This document shows, piece by piece, positions 1,946 through 12,787 of a stretch of 24,863 nt of DNA (positions are counted from its first letter, which is position 1; each line of letters opens with the position of its first letter). The stretch comes from a virus. The position numbers were made by a program, and so were the translations under genes. The stretch lies in IMG/VR virus record IMGVR_UViG_3300046411_001406, positions 1 through 24,863 of that record; one strand, 5' to 3'. The notes beneath the pieces are model-generated. The model searched no databases. It saw only the letters and a list, made by a program, of their open reading frames with translations, and was not told the origin of the DNA.

Positions 1946-2255
1946 TTTAGGTGATTTCGAAAATTGGGATAATCCTGATAAAAATAATAAACAGGAAAAA
2001 GATTTTGAAATTCGTAATAGTGTAGAGTCTATTGCATTTATTGAGCAATTAAAAACATCTTCAAAGGAAATAATGATGGACCTTATTTATAAGGCAATTG
2101 TTAAAGAAGAAATGGGAGCTTTAGAGAATAATACTCCAATTGAAGAAAAAATTGAAGCATTGCAAACAGTTATAAGATTTTTTATTGAGAGAGAAGAATA
2201 TGAAAGATGCCACGAACTTAAAAAAATAATAGATAAAATTTATGTTAATAACTAA
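1938..2255 (+). CDS. small acidic protein with UVR-like C-terminal motif (paralogue 2)
   Basis: 105 residues, starting inside the end of dnaJ (8-base overlap) and ending inside the start of the bS21 gene (14-base overlap), so the three are almost certainly co-translated. The N-terminal 30 residues are Asp/Asn/Lys-rich and probably disordered. The C-terminal part has I-R-F-F-I-E-R-E-E-Y-E-R-C-H-E-L-K-K-I-I, the same signature as in the genes at 654 and 2548. The lock-step position between a chaperone and a ribosomal protein suggests a role in translation or protein quality control, but that is inference from context only. No enzyme motif is visible. Confidence 0.7.
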   Translation: MNDLGDFENWDNPDKNNKQEKDFEIRNSVESIAFIEQLKTSSKEIMMDLIYKAIVKEEMGALENNTPIEEKIEALQTVIRFFIEREEYERCHELKKIIDKIYVNN

Positions 2256-2439
2256 AGTAGAAAAAGGAAATATAGAAAAGGCCTTAAGGCAGTATAAAAG
2301 AAAAACAATTAAAACTAAGCAAATGAAAAAGCTTAGAGATAATCAAGATTATACGAAGCCATCTGCTTTAAAAAGACTAAAAATTCAAAAGGCAGTCTAT
2401 CTTCAGAAAAAATCTGATGCCGAAAACAAAGACAATTAA
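2242..2439 (+). CDS. rpsU: ribosomal protein bS21 homologue
   Basis: 65 residues, the usual size for bS21 in Bacteroidota and shorter than the E. coli protein. It has the family pattern V-x-K-G-N-I-E-K-A-L-R-Q-Y-K-R-K (6-21), then a second helix with M-K-K-L-R and Y-T-K-P-S (37-41), and a final K-R-x-K-I-Q-K-A-V-Y-L-Q (44-55). The last string is characteristic of Bacteroidota bS21, not of proteobacterial versions. bS21 sits on the 30S platform next to the 16S 3' end; in Bacteroidota it helps to hide the anti-Shine-Dalgarno. Phage bS21 is known from large phages and is thought to replace the host copy. The ATG overlaps the preceding gene by 14 bases. It pairs conceptually with the S1-like gene at 24203. 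Confidence 0.88.
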   Translation: MLITKVEKGNIEKALRQYKRKTIKTKQMKKLRDNQDYTKPSALKRLKIQKAVYLQKKSDAENKDN

Positions 2440-2819: not shown

Positions 2820-3545
2820 ATGAGTAGAAACAACAATTCAAATAGCAATTCTAATCCTGGTAAACCTAGGAGAAGAAGATACGGAATAAAAGAAGAGAAC
2901 TTAAAAGGAGTACAATTAAGACAATCACAGAAGAAATACACAAATACAATACTAGAAAATCAAATAACATTTTGTTCAGGACCCGCGGGAACTTCAAAAA
3001 CATTTACTGCATGTTACACCGCTCTTTTGCTTTTAGCTAGAAAAGAAATTTCACAAATAGTTTTATGTAAGCCTATTCAAGAGGCAGGTGAAAAATTAGG
3101 ATTTTTACCAGGAGACATCGCCGATAAAATAGATCCATTCATGCAATCATACATTTCTAATATTACTAAAATAGTTGGAGCAGAAATTGCAGAAACCCTA
3201 GTAGAAAAAGAAGTTATTGTGTTTAGGCCGATGGCATATATGAGAGGAGATACCTTTGATGATTCGTTAATGGTTTTAGATGAAGCACAAAACGCAACGT
3301 TTAAACAACTCATGTTATTTGTGACTAGGATGGGAAAAGATTCTAAAGTAATAGTCACTGGTGACGTAAGCCAGCATGATATTTCAAAGGCGAATGTAGG
3401 TTTACCTTCTTTTTCTGAATTAATGTCAGGTATAAAGGGAATAGGTATGCATGAGTTTACAGAAAAAGATATTGTTAGGGCTAAGATTCTACAGGAAGTT
3501 GTAAAAAGATACGATAAGTGGAAAGAAAACCACGGACCTAAATAA
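2820..3545 (+). CDS. phoH: PhoH-like P-loop ATPase
   Basis: 241 residues. After a basic, Asn-rich, probably disordered start (1-35), the P-loop domain has Walker A G-P-A-G-T-S-K-T at 54-61, the family motif K-P-x-Q-E-A-G-E-K-L-G-F-L-P-G-D at 84-99, and Walker B M-V-L-D-E-A-Q-N at 151-158, followed by T-G-D (sensor-like) near 179. PhoH proteins are ATP-binding and related to the helicase-like C-terminal domain of bacterial PhoH2; they are among the most frequent phage auxiliary genes, and their role, perhaps RNA metabolism, is unsettled. The Walker A has Ser where Gly is usual (GTSKT in place of GTGKT), which is tolerated in P-loops. The start has an A-rich leader. Confidence 0.92.
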   Translation: MSRNNNSNSNSNPGKPRRRRYGIKEENLKGVQLRQSQKKYTNTILENQITFCSGPAGTSKTFTACYTALLLLARKEISQIVLCKPIQEAGEKLGFLPGDIADKIDPFMQSYISNITKIVGAEIAETLVEKEVIVFRPMAYMRGDTFDDSLMVLDEAQNATFKQLMLFVTRMGKDSKVIVTGDVSQHDISKANVGLPSFSELMSGIKGIGMHEFTEKDIVRAKILQEVVKRYDKWKENHGPK

Positions 3546-3587: not shown

Positions 3588-4220
3588 ATGGAGCAAAAAC
3601 ACATTTTACTTAAAGGAAGTTATAACGAAGACACTAACATAGTAGAGGTCGGTGTGGATGAAGCAGGCAGAGGAGCCTTAGCGGGACCAGTTACCGTTGC
3701 AGCATGTATAATGCCGCATGGTTTTAATCATCCTTTAATTAAAGATTCTAAACTATTAAACGAAGCTCAAAGAAAAGAAGCTAGACAAATAGTGCTAGAA
3801 AATGCGATAGCCTACACGGTAGAACATATTGGTATAGACGTTATAGAAAATACTAATATTTTAAGAGCAACTCTAGAAGGCATGAGAATAGCACTCGCTA
3901 AAACATGCCAATCACATCCCTTTAATTTTATCTTAGTTGATGGAGATCAATTTCATGGATTTGATGGAAAGCCTTTTAAAACCATAATAGGAGGAGACAA
4001 TAAATATTCTTCCATTGCTGCGGCATCTATTCTGGCAAAAACAGAAAGAGATCTTTTGATGAAAACCTTAGATGAAGAGACACCCGGTTATGGATGGAAT
4101 TCTAATAAAGGCTATGGAACTAAACAGCATATAACCGCAATTAAGGAAAACGGATCGAGCGAACACCACAGACCGTCCTTTATTTCACATCTATTAACTA
4201 CCACTAACTCTTTATTTTAA
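3588..4220 (+). CDS. rnhB: ribonuclease HII
   Basis: 210 residues, full length for the family. It endonucleolytically removes RNA from RNA-DNA hybrids and single ribonucleotides in DNA using divalent metal. Motif 1, G-V-D-E-A-G-R-G-A-L-A-G-P-V, gives the catalytic D24 and E25; L-V-D-G-D provides D118; A-K-T-E-R-D provides D155. The G-Y-G-W-N-x-N-K-G-Y-G-T substrate loop and the S-x-H-H-R-P-S-F end are also present. In a T4-like phage the usual enzyme is a FEN-type RNase H, so this bacterial-type HII is a non-orthologous choice for primer or ribonucleotide removal. The stop overlaps the next start (TAATG), indicating coupling with the membrane protein gene. Confidence 0.95.
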   Translation: MEQKHILLKGSYNEDTNIVEVGVDEAGRGALAGPVTVAACIMPHGFNHPLIKDSKLLNEAQRKEARQIVLENAIAYTVEHIGIDVIENTNILRATLEGMRIALAKTCQSHPFNFILVDGDQFHGFDGKPFKTIIGGDNKYSSIAAASILAKTERDLLMKTLDEETPGYGWNSNKGYGTKQHITAIKENGSSEHHRPSFISHLLTTTNSLF

Positions 4221-5288: not shown

Positions 5289-5849
5289 ATGAAACATTTA
5301 ATGACATTTGAAAATTATCAGAAATATTCTGATTATCAACATCCTAGAAGTAGATGGGGTAGTCCTGAAGAATTAAAGGAAGATGCATTTTTAACTCTTA
5401 AAAAATTAATGCCAACCTTTAAAGATAAATGGATTAAATCTATAAAGGATGTTTCTATAGAAGATAAAGGAATTAAGTTTGAAGCTAAAGTAGGTAAATA
5501 TACAATCCACTTGTTTAAGGTTGGAAACTGGAGAGGTCAGTGGGAATTTTATCTTAATAAAAAGAAAATAGAATCAAGCGATTTAAAATCTAGACTGGAA
5601 AAAGAAAACATGTCAGATCTAGAGCTCTTCCTAAAATATGCCAAGTCTTATGATTTTTATTATCAATACATTGACGACGGTGGCAAATATAGAGCTGCTC
5701 AGAGAAATAATTCTGCAATAGAAGATAGGTTTAATAAACTATCGAGCTCAGATAAAAAGAAGGCTAATAAAGAATTAGTTAAGCATTTTAAAGGAGCGTA
5801 CAAGGATAATAAAATTGTCGATAGAGTAAATTCTACGTTTAAAGCGTAG
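5289..5849 (+). CDS. putative capsid-targeted internal protein, unknown function
   Basis: 186 residues, very Lys-rich and hydrophilic, with no membrane segment. The N-terminus M-K-H-L-M-T-F-E-N-Y matches the pattern shared with the genes at 8943, 9817, 10470, 10789 and 11363, which resembles the capsid-targeting peptide of T4 internal proteins. The first (I/L)xE site is L-K-E at 29-31, further in than in the sister proteins. The body has alternating beta segments (I-K-F-E-A-K-V-G-K-Y-T-I-H-L-F) and basic helices at the C-terminus (S-S-D-K-K-K-A-N-K-E-L). A basic protein packed with DNA would fit. The GATATATAA motif sits directly before the ATG and a terminator closes the unit. The function of the mature body is unknown. 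Confidence 0.55.
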   Translation: MKHLMTFENYQKYSDYQHPRSRWGSPEELKEDAFLTLKKLMPTFKDKWIKSIKDVSIEDKGIKFEAKVGKYTIHLFKVGNWRGQWEFYLNKKKIESSDLKSRLEKENMSDLELFLKYAKSYDFYYQYIDDGGKYRAAQRNNSAIEDRFNKLSSSDKKKANKELVKHFKGAYKDNKIVDRVNSTFKA

Positions 5850-8942: not shown

Positions 8943-9482
8943 ATGAAGTTTATTAAAACATTTGAAGAGTGGGATAGCGTTTCTCCTGAGCTAAAGGCCC
9001 ATGTTGATGAGGGCTTAGATTTAACTAATTCTTTCTTTCGATTAGGAAGCGATGCATATTCAAAACTCTTTGAAGAGGTAAAACAATATTGGGATAAAAA
9101 CAATATTATTTTAAAGGGTCCTTCAGGATGGATGGCAAAAAACTTAGAAGTAGGTAAAAAAGCTATTTATAAACCAAGAGGAGGAAAACAAATAAACGTA
9201 AAATTAGATTCACCAGAAAGAGGTGGAAAAAAGAAATTCATAGTTTATAGAAACACTGGAAGAACTGATAAAGAAGGAAACGTCATTGCTAAAAAGTTAG
9301 AATGGGGAGATCCTTCGTCCACTGTTAAAAACGACGATCCAGGTAGAGCTGCTAATTTTTGGGCAAGACATGGATGTGATAAAATGTCAAAAATGGACCC
9401 TAATAAAAATGGATTCTGGGCATGCTATGGACCTACTCTATTCGGAAAACAATTAGGACTAAAAAGCGACCAGCCATGGTAA
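8943..9482 (+). CDS. putative capsid-targeted phage protein with C-terminal RHxC/WxC domain
   Basis: 179 residues. The N-terminus M-K-F-I-K-T-F-E-E-W fits the capsid-targeting pattern of this cluster; V-D-E followed by G at 21-24 is a possible prohead protease site, with Val where Ile/Leu is usual. The C-terminal domain (about 83-165) has K-K-F-I-V-Y, then W-G-D-P, N-D-D-P-G-R (130-135), W-A-R-H-G-C (140-145) and G-F-W-A-C-Y (157-162). I recall this arrangement (FGDP, DDPxR, ARHxC, WxC) as a recurring domain in proteins of T4-like marine phages; the two Cys and the His could bind zinc. The function of that domain is not known to me. The stop overlaps the next start by seven bases. Confidence 0.65.
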   Translation: MKFIKTFEEWDSVSPELKAHVDEGLDLTNSFFRLGSDAYSKLFEEVKQYWDKNNIILKGPSGWMAKNLEVGKKAIYKPRGGKQINVKLDSPERGGKKKFIVYRNTGRTDKEGNVIAKKLEWGDPSSTVKNDDPGRAANFWARHGCDKMSKMDPNKNGFWACYGPTLFGKQLGLKSDQPW

Positions 9483-9820
9483 AAGAAGATTGCGGATGTA
9501 AAAATTGCGGATGCGGAACAATGTCAATGGATGAAATGATTTCTATGATAGATGACCAGACTCTTCCTTTTACAGAGACAATTATCTCAGAAAATATAAT
9601 CATTAGGGAATTTCAACCCAATCAGCCTAGCCATCTTTTTAAATGGCACTTTGACGAGCAGGATAGAATTATCAATGCGATAGAAGATAACGACTGGAAG
9701 TTTCAATACGACAATAAAATACCCATCCCTTTAAAAGGATATATAAAGATAGAGGCTGGAGTATATCATAGAATAATTCCTGGTAAAACTCCTCTAAAAT
9801 TACAGATAAAATTAACATGA
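9476..9820 (+). CDS. cupin-like small protein with N-terminal cysteine cluster
   Basis: 114 residues from the ATG at 9476, overlapping the previous stop; the longer frame from 9422 lies inside the preceding gene. Residues 6-13 contain four Cys in a C-x-C-x-x-C-x-C layout that could bind a metal. The C-terminal half has F-K-W-H-F-D-E-Q-D-R (56-64), D-W-K-F-Q-Y-D-N, then Y-I-K-I-E-A-G-V-Y-H-R-I-I-P-G (89-103). The W-H...D-R...G-x-Y-H-R spacing is that of a small single-domain cupin, a barrel often holding metal through His58 and His98. I recall similar small cupin-like ORFs in other large phages. It lacks the capsid-targeting start of its neighbours. Its end overlaps the next ATG by four bases. 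Confidence 0.6.
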   Translation: MVKEDCGCKNCGCGTMSMDEMISMIDDQTLPFTETIISENIIIREFQPNQPSHLFKWHFDEQDRIINAIEDNDWKFQYDNKIPIPLKGYIKIEAGVYHRIIPGKTPLKLQIKLT

Positions 9821-10467
9821 GAAATGTAAAACTATTTGAATCTTTTATAAATGAATCTGCTGCTTTTGGTAAAAAAGGAATTAGAGCAAAATTAGAAGAT
9901 AAATTGTCAATAGCTAAAATGGCTATATCTAAATGGGGAGACTCATACCAATCTCAATATAAAGAGATAGAATCTATGCTTAAATCGGGTAAGTTATCTA
10001 ATTATAAAGAACATATCAATGTAGCTGGAGGAGATAAAAAAGACACTTATCAAATATTTCAAGGAAGAAACGCTATTAAATTAGCAGAAGAAATTTCTAA
10101 AGTCATAAAGAAATATAAGAAATATGAAACTGAACAATCTTCAGTTCCTGCAGCAGGTGGATGGTCAGGTACAATGAGATCAACCGTCGGTGGTAAAATT
10201 GAAGGTAGATCTAATTTTACACCAGGTGGCAGAAGAAGCTATTTAATCGCAGTTACATGTGGAGGTGGAATTAGCTCTGCGGCTAAAGATAAATTATTTC
10301 AAGAAATTTACGAACTATTATTTATATTAGATGAATTTAATTCATCAGACGGCGGAGTTTTTGTTAATCACGAATCAGGTACTAATTATTCTACGATAGG
10401 CCTTTCTTCTAACTATGGTTTCAATAAATCTTTTGCAGACAAATTAATAAGAATAATGAATGGCTAA
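9817..10467 (+). CDS. putative capsid-targeted internal protein, unknown function
   Basis: 216 residues. The start M-R-N-V-K-L-F-E-S-F is followed at once by I-N-E with S after it (11-14), which fits the (I/L)-x-E cleavage rule of the T4 prohead protease and puts the predicted cut after residue 13. The mature part is basic: a Lys-rich helical region (K-V-I-K-K-Y-K-K-Y near 100), a Gly/Ser-rich middle (A-A-G-G-W-S-G-T-M-R-S) and a mixed region with Y-L-I-A-V-T-C-G-G-G-I-S-S and V-F-V-N-H-E-S-G-T-N-Y. No enzyme family was recognised. It overlaps the preceding gene by four bases and is two bases from the next, so this is part of one operon. GATATATAA at 9738, inside the upstream gene, might add a promoter. 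Confidence 0.6.
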   Translation: MRNVKLFESFINESAAFGKKGIRAKLEDKLSIAKMAISKWGDSYQSQYKEIESMLKSGKLSNYKEHINVAGGDKKDTYQIFQGRNAIKLAEEISKVIKKYKKYETEQSSVPAAGGWSGTMRSTVGGKIEGRSNFTPGGRRSYLIAVTCGGGISSAAKDKLFQEIYELLFILDEFNSSDGGVFVNHESGTNYSTIGLSSNYGFNKSFADKLIRIMNG

Positions 10468-10469
10468 TT

Positions 10470-10784
10470 ATGAAAAAAGTAAAATTATTTGAACAGTTTA
10501 TAGGTGAAGCTAAGATTACCGAAAAAGATTTTGATAAGGTAGTTAAAGCGCTGAAAAAATCAAAATATCCAATAACTGTAATGTTTGTTTCTAAATGGAA
10601 TGAAATAGACATTGTTATAGGAATGGATGCCCCTGATCCTATTGCTGAAGACATCATCGATAGATTAGATAAAATAGGTTTATACGGAAATAGAGACATT
10701 TCAATTTCAGGCGATTCTTCTAATTATTCAAGAAGAGAATACGATAAAATTGAAAGAATTAATGGAGGTCATAGAGACTATTAA
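10470..10784 (+). CDS. putative capsid-targeted internal protein, small
   Basis: 104 residues. M-K-K-V-K-L-F-E-Q-F runs into I-G-E followed by A (11-14), the clearest T4-type targeting peptide plus cleavage site in the window; I-T-E (16-18) gives a second possible site. The mature part would be about 91 residues, mixed alpha/beta, with F-D-K-V-V-K-A-L-K-K-S-K and I-T-V-M-F-V-S-K-W-N-E-I-D-I-V-I-G-M-D, ending in a charged tail. Size and charge fit the class of small internal proteins such as T4 IPI-IPIII, whose bodies are not conserved between phages. Spacing to the neighbours is two and four bases. Specific activity unknown. Confidence 0.6.
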   Translation: MKKVKLFEQFIGEAKITEKDFDKVVKALKKSKYPITVMFVSKWNEIDIVIGMDAPDPIAEDIIDRLDKIGLYGNRDISISGDSSNYSRREYDKIERINGGHRDY

Positions 10785-10788
10785 TAAG

Positions 10789-11319
10789 ATGAAGCACCTA
10801 AAACTATTTGAAGAATTTACATCCTTAAACGAAGGAGTTAGCAAATACGACTACGATAAGTGGATTAAAAGTAACGGTAAAATTAAATACCCCAAATGGA
10901 TAGAAAAGACTCGTAAAGAAATTATTAAAGCGGGTATGATGGATAAGGTGTATGATAGTGAACACCAGAACATGTCAATATGGACTAATTCTTTAGGAGA
11001 CGAATTGTTTAAAATATACGCAGATCGTAAACTAAGAGATAAAGAGTTTGGTAAAACAGGTAGTCAATTTCTTAATGACAAATGGAATGATATTAGAGGA
11101 TATACTGCGTTCGAATGGGAAGGTGCAGTGATTGCGCTAGGATTAAGTAAAATGGTTGAAGACATGGTTGCTAACGACGAACCAGTAGAACCAGCATATT
11201 ATATTACTAAAGAATGGTTTAAAAATCATGGAAAGGATTATAGTAGAAGTAGAATGTTTGACGCAGCCACTAAAAAGTTAGAAGATTGGATAAAAAGAAA
11301 TAACATCAAAACCTTATAA
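10789..11319 (+). CDS. putative capsid-targeted internal protein, unknown function
   Basis: 176 residues from the ATG at 10789, chosen over an upstream in-frame ATG at 10750 because it restores the shared N-terminus M-K-H-L-K-L-F-E-E-F and lies four bases after the previous stop. L-N-E followed by G (13-16) is a predicted prohead protease site. The body is Lys- and Trp-rich with K-Y-P-K-W-I-E-K-T-R-K-E-I-I-K-A-G-M near 35-52, and a helical end containing F-D-A-A-T-K-K-L-E-D-W-I-K-R. It has no signal peptide, membrane segment or catalytic motif that I recognise. It closes the run of three tandem internal-protein candidates before the acidic repeat protein. Confidence 0.6.
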   Translation: MKHLKLFEEFTSLNEGVSKYDYDKWIKSNGKIKYPKWIEKTRKEIIKAGMMDKVYDSEHQNMSIWTNSLGDELFKIYADRKLRDKEFGKTGSQFLNDKWNDIRGYTAFEWEGAVIALGLSKMVEDMVANDEPVEPAYYITKEWFKNHGKDYSRSRMFDAATKKLEDWIKRNNIKTL

Positions 11320-11362: not shown

Positions 11363-12787
11363 ATGGCAAAATTAAAATCATTTGAACAGTTTTTATCTGA
11401 AATGGATAGAGCTGAAGAAGTGCAACAAGATGTAGTTGCTACTGCTGAGCCAGTTGAACATTCAGAAGAAGAAGCGGAAGAAGTTCAGGGTAATGGTGAT
11501 GCTGTAGAAGAATCTACTGAAGAAGTAAATGAAGGTGTACACCCTAAATTAAAGAAAGCTCAAAAAGCAATTAAGAACGGCGAAACTGTTTACGGAGAAA
11601 ACGTTAGATTTCCTGGAAGATTTAAAATCATAGAACTTGGAGATATGTTCGCAACAGTGGACTATGAAGATGGTACTAAACCAATGGAAATGGCTTCAAT
11701 GAATATCAGAATTGATTCTTTACAATTTGAATCCGTTGAAACCGAAGACGTAAACGAAGGTATTAGCCCTAAAATTAAGAAAGCTATAAAAGCTGTCGAA
11801 AAAGGAGAAACAGTTTATGGTGAAAACATCAGATTCCCTGGAAGATTTAAGATTTTATCTTTTAACAAAGCTGGTAATATGGCTACCGTAGACTATGAAG
11901 ATGGTACTAAACCAATGGAAATGGCTTCAATGAACATTGCTATTGATAAATTACAATTTGAATCAGCTGAAACTGAAACGGTTGAAGAATCATGTGGAGC
12001 ATGTAACGAAGAACCATGTGTTTGTGAATCTGAAAAAGTTACTGAAGGTAAGAAAATTGCTAAAGCAGACATCGAAGAAGTTGCAGATTTTAGAGACGGT
12101 GAAGGATATTCTTCTAATCAATATTATATTCTAGCTGACTTTGCTCAAGAAAAGCTTGGTGACGGACCATACGACATTAAAGAACTAGAAAAGTTATTAA
12201 AGTCTAAAGAAGTACAAAAAGCACTAAAAGGAGAGGAAGAAATAGACATGGAACATCTTGAAGAATTCTCAGAATCAGTAAAGACAATTACTGAATCTGG
12301 AGAAGAAGCTGGTTTACCTGCTGAAGATTTAAAAGATGAAACTAAAGAAGTTGATAACGATGTTGAAGCTCCTGAAGATAAGTCAAAAGAATTAGAAACT
12401 GAATTAGAAGATACAGTTGACGGTGCAGGTAATGAAGAAATTTCTGAATCTGAAGAATCTGAAGAATCTGAAGAAGTTGCAGAAGAAGAAGCTGAAGAAA
12501 CTAAAGCAGTTTCTGATATGTTATCTGAGGTGTATGAAGCATGTAAAAACGAAGCTAAAGCATGGGAATCTGATGCACATGATGAGCATACAGTAGAAAC
12601 TTACATGAAAGAAAATGCTGCATTAGTTGGTGGATTATCTGCTAAATGCCTTAAAGAAATGAAAGAAGATTATTCTGTTGAAGCTTATGAAGCTGCATGT
12701 AATGAAATGATCGAAGCATATTCTAAGAAAGTGAATGAGATGAAAGAATCTGATTCAGCGGTAGGTGAAGAAACACCAGAAGCTTAA
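11363..12787 (+). CDS. acidic, internally duplicated capsid-targeted protein (prohead core/internal candidate)
   Basis: 474 residues, extremely rich in Glu. The start M-A-K-L-K-S-F-E-Q-F plus L-S-E (11-13) matches the capsid-targeting peptide and cleavage site of the upstream genes. Two tandem repeats of about 75 residues follow (about 56-130 and 131-207), each beginning N-E-G and including G-E-T-V-Y-G-E-N, R-F-P-G-R-F-K-I and D-Y-E-D-G-T-K-P. V-N-E before G occurs at the head of each repeat, and V-T-E, I-T-E and I-S-E follow later, so a prohead protease could cut it into pieces. A C-x-x-C-x-x-x-x-C-x-C cluster lies at 211-221. The C-terminal third is disordered and acidic (E-S-E-E-S-E-E-S-E-E), then helical. 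T4 prohead core proteins (gp22, gp67) are similarly acidic and cleaved, so scaffold or internal-protein function is plausible but inferred. Confidence 0.65.
   Translation: MAKLKSFEQFLSEMDRAEEVQQDVVATAEPVEHSEEEAEEVQGNGDAVEESTEEVNEGVHPKLKKAQKAIKNGETVYGENVRFPGRFKIIELGDMFATVDYEDGTKPMEMASMNIRIDSLQFESVETEDVNEGISPKIKKAIKAVEKGETVYGENIRFPGRFKILSFNKAGNMATVDYEDGTKPMEMASMNIAIDKLQFESAETETVEESCGACNEEPCVCESEKVTEGKKIAKADIEEVADFRDGEGYSSNQYYILADFAQEKLGDGPYDIKELEKLLKSKEVQKALKGEEEIDMEHLEEFSESVKTITESGEEAGLPAEDLKDETKEVDNDVEAPEDKSKELETELEDTVDGAGNEEISESEESEESEEVAEEEAEETKAVSDMLSEVYEACKNEAKAWESDAHDEHTVETYMKENAALVGGLSAKCLKEMKEDYSVEAYEAACNEMIEAYSKKVNEMKESDSAVGEETPEA
11528..11983 (+). repeat. in-gene tandem duplication, two copies of about 225-231 bases
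   Basis: Copy 1 is about 11528-11752 and copy 2 about 11753-11983. They encode the repeated domain of the acidic protein. A 44-base stretch is identical in both (11660-11703 and 11891-11934), while flanking parts have diverged at the codon level. This suggests either recent gene conversion of the core or strong constraint on it. Confidence 0.85.

Follow-up and report, generated by a model that had tools for sequence, protein, structure and literature searches.

The present analysis of a 24,863-base stretch of viral DNA (the window, i.e. the whole stretch that was analysed) indicates that the one bS21 gene of this virus record encodes, as judged from its sequence, a genuine ribosomal protein bS21 of the Bacteroidota type. 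This phage copy probably keeps the anti-Shine-Dalgarno of the 16S rRNA hidden rather than exposed, and escapes the feedback acting on host bS21. Phage-borne bS21, and the idea of its exchange onto host ribosomes in favour of phage mRNAs, have already been published (PMC6375957, PMC9723584). The present study adds the dnaJ block in which the gene lies, which differs from the published head-gene context, together with a phage signature at residues 23-28, the near-absence of an extended Shine-Dalgarno (SD) from phage bS21 genes, and a depletion of SD pairing at phage gene starts. The features of the window that are needed for the argument are given below.

260-598, + strand: small heat-shock protein of the Hsp20 type, close to the block (PF00011, 1.5e-13); its position differs between relatives.
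654-947, + strand: third small protein of the E-EYEKC family by alignment, 97 aa, acidic (charge -16).
1015-1209, + strand: small basic ORF of 64 aa, first gene of the block, overlapping the dnaJ start; a homologue stands in the same place in the block phages.
1154-1945, + strand: dnaJ-like co-chaperone (PF00226, 2.5e-23; PF01556, 3.3e-33), kept in place at 20 other representative phage loci.
1938-2255, + strand: u1938, small helical protein of 105 aa with E-EYERC (20-member family alignment; helical model).
2216-2241, + strand: bS21 leader, no Shine-Dalgarno (pairing -1.1 kcal/mol).
2242-2439, + strand: bS21 of the Bacteroidota type, phage subfamily, as predicted from PF01165, TIGR00030 and 7jil (phage-only clade; Tyr54 kept).
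2496-2503, + strand: AATATATA, phage promoter-like motif of putative function in the gap after bS21.
2533-2805 (2506-2805), + strand: u2533, 90 aa, second of the small E-EYEKC proteins (aligns with 654-947 and 1938-2255; conserved block position).
2820-3545, + strand: PhoH-like ATPase, block member (PF02562, 1.8e-62).
3588-4220, + strand: RNase HII, block member (PF01351, 1.6e-33).

Identity and ancestry of the phage bS21

First, the 65 codons at 2242-2439 encode a 65-residue product that matches PF01165 (E 5e-10; 39.4 bits against a curated cut-off of 27), TIGR00030 of NCBIfam (33.6 bits against a curated cut-off of 28.95) and phrog_21469, 'ribosomal protein S21'. The closest solved structures are the Bacteroidota-type bS21 chains 9i5v and 7jil (E approximately 1e-10), the latter being that of F. 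johnsoniae, and the C-terminal KIQKAVYLQ aligns with QIQKAAYIQ of F. johnsoniae, Tyr54 included. These matches bear out the earlier note on this DNA, in which a 65-residue protein with the bS21 signature, including this C-terminus, had been recognized. The predicted structure comprises two helices (pLDDT 86), and the pI of the protein is 10.2. When the model was compared with the PDB using Foldseek, all ten matches were ribosome or mitoribosome chains of about the size of bS21, none of which was individually significant (best E 0.62). The dN/dS of bS21 was 0.01-0.08 where synonymous change was not saturated, reflecting strong purifying selection.

Second, in a tree of 93 host and phage bS21 proteins, the window copy falls within a phage-only clade of 42 (support 96/90), separate from all host copies. 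That the gene was captured recently from a host was rejected on the strength of this clade, although the tree has only 64 columns. The deeper order of the tree is unsure because the alignment comprised only 64 columns, and a single origin of all phage bS21 was neither shown nor rejected (AU p 0.63). As nearest relatives, virus records with lengths of up to 178,737 bases were identified, and relatives of the window tail proteins were found in phages of Flavobacterium and Chryseobacterium. The bS21 type and these tail-protein relatives suggest that the window phage probably infects flavobacteria.

Several known systems are comparable. Mizuno et al. (2019) showed that E. coli ribosomes take up the bS21 of pelagiphage HTVC008M (PMC6375957), and the HTVC008M and metaviromic bS21 resemble the window copy in being encoded by aquatic, mostly lytic phages and in being under purifying selection. 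However, the HTVC008M protein is of the alphaproteobacterial type, unlike that of the window, and sequestration of the 16S tail by bS21 is a trait of Bacteroidota. Chen et al. (2022) described 47 Bacteroidetes phage genomes with bS21, an aromatic residue 54 and divergence at about residues 21-28, and proposed that the phage copy replaces host bS21 (PMC9723584). Their lake phages share with the window the Bacteroidota-type bS21, the aromatic residue 54, the divergence in the N-terminal helix region and predicted Bacteroidetes hosts.

The gene block around bS21

Third, bS21 lies in a conserved gene block. The order of small ORF, dnaJ, u1938, bS21, u2533, phoH, RNase HII and membrane protein was observed at 20 of 41 representative phage loci, and persists at bS21 identities down to approximately 56-59%. 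The earlier note had regarded the tight coupling of bS21 to dnaJ as the unusual part of this DNA; the coupling stands, but it is a trait of a whole phage lineage and not peculiar to the window. In the lake phages of Chen et al., bS21 is antisense among the terminase, portal, protease and capsid genes, whereas in phages of the window lineage the gene points the same way as its neighbours, within a dnaJ operon ahead of phoH and RNase HII. The antisense context, with bS21 between the prohead protease and a T4-type portal and without dnaJ, was also observed here at L149, L156, L159, L170 and L173, the head genes being identified by profile in L173, L149 and L159. A further comparison is provided by the moraphages, large aquatic Bacteroidota phages with DnaJ, DnaK and Hsp20, of which DnaJ and Hsp20 are shared with the window; the main text of the moraphage paper mentions no S21 or ribosomal protein (PMC12619734).

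Within the block, the DnaJ protein has a J domain with HPD (VHHPDG) and a DnaJ_C domain, and is not a full type I DnaJ because the zinc-finger domain is absent. The first ORF of the block had no family match above the cut-off in Pfam and profile searches. In the window, u1938 shares 8 nt with dnaJ and 14 nt with bS21; of 19 relatives, 16 have an overlap of exactly 7 nt between the u1938 stop and the bS21 start. Given this conserved stop/start overlap, translational coupling of u1938 and bS21 is the simplest reading.

LR756502 and LR745206, both huge phages whose gene order differs, also encode a J-domain protein, located two genes downstream from bS21 (L025:5679-6386 and L028:5624-6340, respectively). 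This proximity is suggestive of a functional link, and the two phages count as one case because they are related in the bS21 region.

The block might also be merely old and rarely rearranged, with bS21 and dnaJ functionally unlinked. PhoH and RNase HII, which have no obvious link, are equally conserved in the block, and phages in which bS21 lies among head genes have kept it without dnaJ. Despite these observations, the exactness of the 7-nt overlap among relatives and the J-domain proteins of the two huge phages argue for more than chance, and we place this account, which concerns the context only, slightly below an even chance.

The small neighbour u1938 shares E-EYE(K/R)C with the proteins at 654-947 and 2506-2805 in the alignment, and these are likely paralogues placed around the chaperone and bS21 genes. 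Its description as UVR-like in the earlier note was not supported. No match to UVR (PF02151) was obtained for any of the 20 members of the family at E 0.1, nor any credible match to another Pfam family, and HHalign of the family against a true UVR protein aligned only 19 columns (probability 2.4%). Searches with u1938 against PHROG, PDB profiles and folds gave nothing convincing. The UVR identity is thus unsupported at the profile level, despite a real UVR-motif protein (L028:4441-4737) located two genes upstream of bS21 in LR745206. The predicted structure of u1938 is mostly helical (pLDDT 72). Eukaryotic ribosomal-protein chaperones provide a precedent for the acidic escort of a basic ribosomal protein. 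The charge of u1938 is -9 in the window and ranges from -12 to +3 in the family, and an 'acidic escort' of the basic bS21 was accordingly dropped as a general property.

Contact residues, Shine-Dalgarno pairing and initiation

Fourth, the residues expected to hold the 16S tail, Tyr54 among them, are kept. The comparison covered 51 distinct phage and 77 distinct host bS21 sequences, with contact residues as given by Chen et al. (2022) and McNutt et al. (2023). A15, L16, K20, K22, K40, R46 and A52 are invariant across both sets, S42 and K51 show little variation among the 51 phage sequences, and Tyr54 is retained in 45 of these 51, the window included. In the window protein, Tyr53 corresponds to F. 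johnsoniae Tyr54, and the aromatic position and the conserved C-terminal helix are present. The host bS21 of F. johnsoniae (PMC9976891; 7jil) belongs to the same family and has the same tail-holding Tyr54. In the earlier note, missing contact residues would have counted against the bS21 reading; Tyr54, K40, S42, R46 and A52 are kept, and the window protein appears to retain the features for binding the 30S platform and covering the 16S 3' tail. Two divergent phage bS21 (L023:6001-6186 and L024:3667-3852) have Asn, not Tyr, at position 54, and for this reason are possibly unable to hold the 16S tail.

A consistent phage signature is observed at positions 23-28, where host proteins read F23-D/E-K/R-T-G-T/V and most phages V/T-I-K-T-K-Q. 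The window has RKTIKTKQ against host RKFDKTGT, such that the F-D-K-T-G-T stretch of F. johnsoniae is replaced and Arg21 is unchanged in this phage-specific divergence around residues 21-28. In addition, host proline 5 is absent from nearly all phage bS21, and the phage proteins are somewhat more basic (core charge 13.2 vs 11.2). The changed 23-28 stretch might add mRNA selectivity, make binding tighter or help to evade a host factor.

The kept contacts, together with strong purifying selection and the chaperones next to bS21, would also be consistent with a phage copy that only supplies more of a limiting, loosely bound protein, keeping 30S subunits complete during fast late synthesis, with no selectivity and with the dnaJ block as a general proteostasis operon. 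However, the signature at 23-28 points to something beyond a duplicate of host bS21, and such a supplement seems to us somewhat improbable.

Fifth, the phage gene differs from its host counterpart in the leader. The rpsU gene of F. johnsoniae is autoregulated through an extended SD read by ribosomes lacking bS21 (McNutt et al. 2023, PMC9976891), whereas the phage gene has none. In the present study, SD pairing was assessed with a 16S tail of the F. johnsoniae type, AUCACCUCCUUUCU, which fits the A1534-U1544 numbering of PMC9976891, and pairing of -13 kcal/mol or stronger was taken as an extended SD. Among the best 80 host matches, all 25 Flavobacteriales-type rpsU genes have an extended SD (approximately -17 to -23 kcal/mol), and all 55 Bacteroidales-type genes pair more weakly than -9 kcal/mol. 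Among 53 distinct phage bS21 genes, one reaches -13 kcal/mol and three reach -9 kcal/mol, the SD-like leaders being those of L142, L026 and L184. The L142 gene (L142:5001-5192, in the 119-kb record G005) belongs to the block lineage but differs from the other copies in its strong SD (-14.3 kcal/mol) and in His at position 54; its feedback control might have been retained or recovered. In the open-licence PMC literature, no report of SD loss in phage bS21 was found.

The weak pairing extends to the phage genes in general. In the window and six large phage records, SD-like pairing before the starts was in every case weaker than in mock regions; in the 178.7-kb relative, the mean was -0.94 before starts compared with -2.59 and -3.18 in mock regions upstream of and inside genes. 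Genes were called as simple longest ORFs, and errors in the starts weaken, but should not create, this contrast. Since phage starts are SD-depleted relative to mock regions, phage mRNAs resemble ordinary SD-less host mRNAs. The suggestion of the earlier note that the phage protein could change initiation is not supported as far as an altered exposure of the anti-Shine-Dalgarno is concerned, given the retained Tyr54 and the SD-depleted starts. The 'escape' from feedback is meaningful only with Flavobacteriales hosts, because the 55 sampled Bacteroidales-type rpsU genes also have no SD, and the absence of an SD in phage bS21 need not be selected, because SD-less is the default for phage genes here.

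Chen et al. proposed that the changed 23-28 stretch, facing the mRNA path, makes ribosomes prefer phage over host leaders. The consistent difference of this stretch between phages and hosts, in the same region where divergence was seen in 2022 (PMC9723584), and the more A-rich phage leaders fit such a preference. However, SD-less leaders that are A-rich around -11 to -13 occur in phages and hosts alike, no distinct phage motif readable by bS21 was found in the leader comparison, and, as the core charges indicate, the change may serve tighter binding instead. We therefore consider a preference of this kind rather unlikely.

Proposed exchange of bS21 on host ribosomes

Herein, we propose that a functional phage bS21 replaces host bS21 on the 30S subunit, keeps the 16S tail tucked and escapes feedback, a reading that we hold to be reasonably probable. 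Phage bS21 would be translated by coupling to the preceding u1938 and would take the place of host bS21 on the 30S platform. Once loaded, it would tuck the 16S 3' tail with its anti-Shine-Dalgarno away, as host bS21 does, and the phage-type ribosomes would go on translating SD-less phage mRNAs. Host bS21 feedback should not restrain the phage gene, as this gene is without the extended SD, and loading of phage bS21 should silence host rpsU, because bS21-replete ribosomes repress it. Host bS21 synthesis would thus be held low, and new 30S subunits would be turned phage-type. We infer the loading, the replacement, the repression of host rpsU and the benefit to phage mRNAs, as well as any role that DnaJ and u1938 have in bS21 folding or exchange. 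That the SD-less, coupled bS21 silences host rpsU as a takeover switch, with the J-protein and u1938 as an escort or exchange factor of bS21, is in our estimation unlikely.

The sole tested case, the pelagiphage bS21 in E. coli, speaks partly against the replacement by a functional phage bS21, since in vitro translation fell to approximately 5% (PMC6375957), a value that allows inhibition. Loaded phage bS21 might accordingly poison the host translation of some or all mRNAs. However, that test paired distant partners, whereas the platform and tail contacts of the window protein are host-type, and the phage itself needs SD-less translation, so that we judge a shut-off of this kind very improbable.

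Published rpsU'-gfp reporters and a published bS21 depletion strain make F. johnsoniae an organism in which the proposed replacement can be approached. The SD contrast, with a strong SD in host rpsU, none in the phage copy and depletion among phage genes, allows a direct reporter test in this organism. Moreover, two candidate helpers of bS21 exchange can be named from the conserved operon; McNutt et al. had speculated about phage factors for this step (PMC9976891).

Two further observations were made in the window. The motif GATATATA / AATATATA occurs at 2496, 5277, 8931, 11326, 15809, 20393 and 24155; it is strand-specific and precedes the starts of many phage ORFs, in most cases by 12-49 nt. 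In G001 (L189-L197), 24 copies were on the same strand vs 2 on the opposite strand, and 23 ORFs were preceded by the motif vs 1.2 expected. Enrichment was also observed in G004, G006 and G008, and the motif is a candidate phage promoter. The T4-like late promoter TATAAATA showed no enrichment in the window (9 matches vs 5.8 expected). In addition, otherwise unlike ORFs at 5289-5849, 8943-9482, 9817-10467, 10470-10784, 10750-11319 and 11363-12787 have similar N-terminal starts (MKHLMTFENY, MKFIKTFEEW, MRNVKLFESF, MKKVKLFEQF, MKHLKLFEEF and MAKLKSFEQF), which may represent a shared propeptide or sorting tag.
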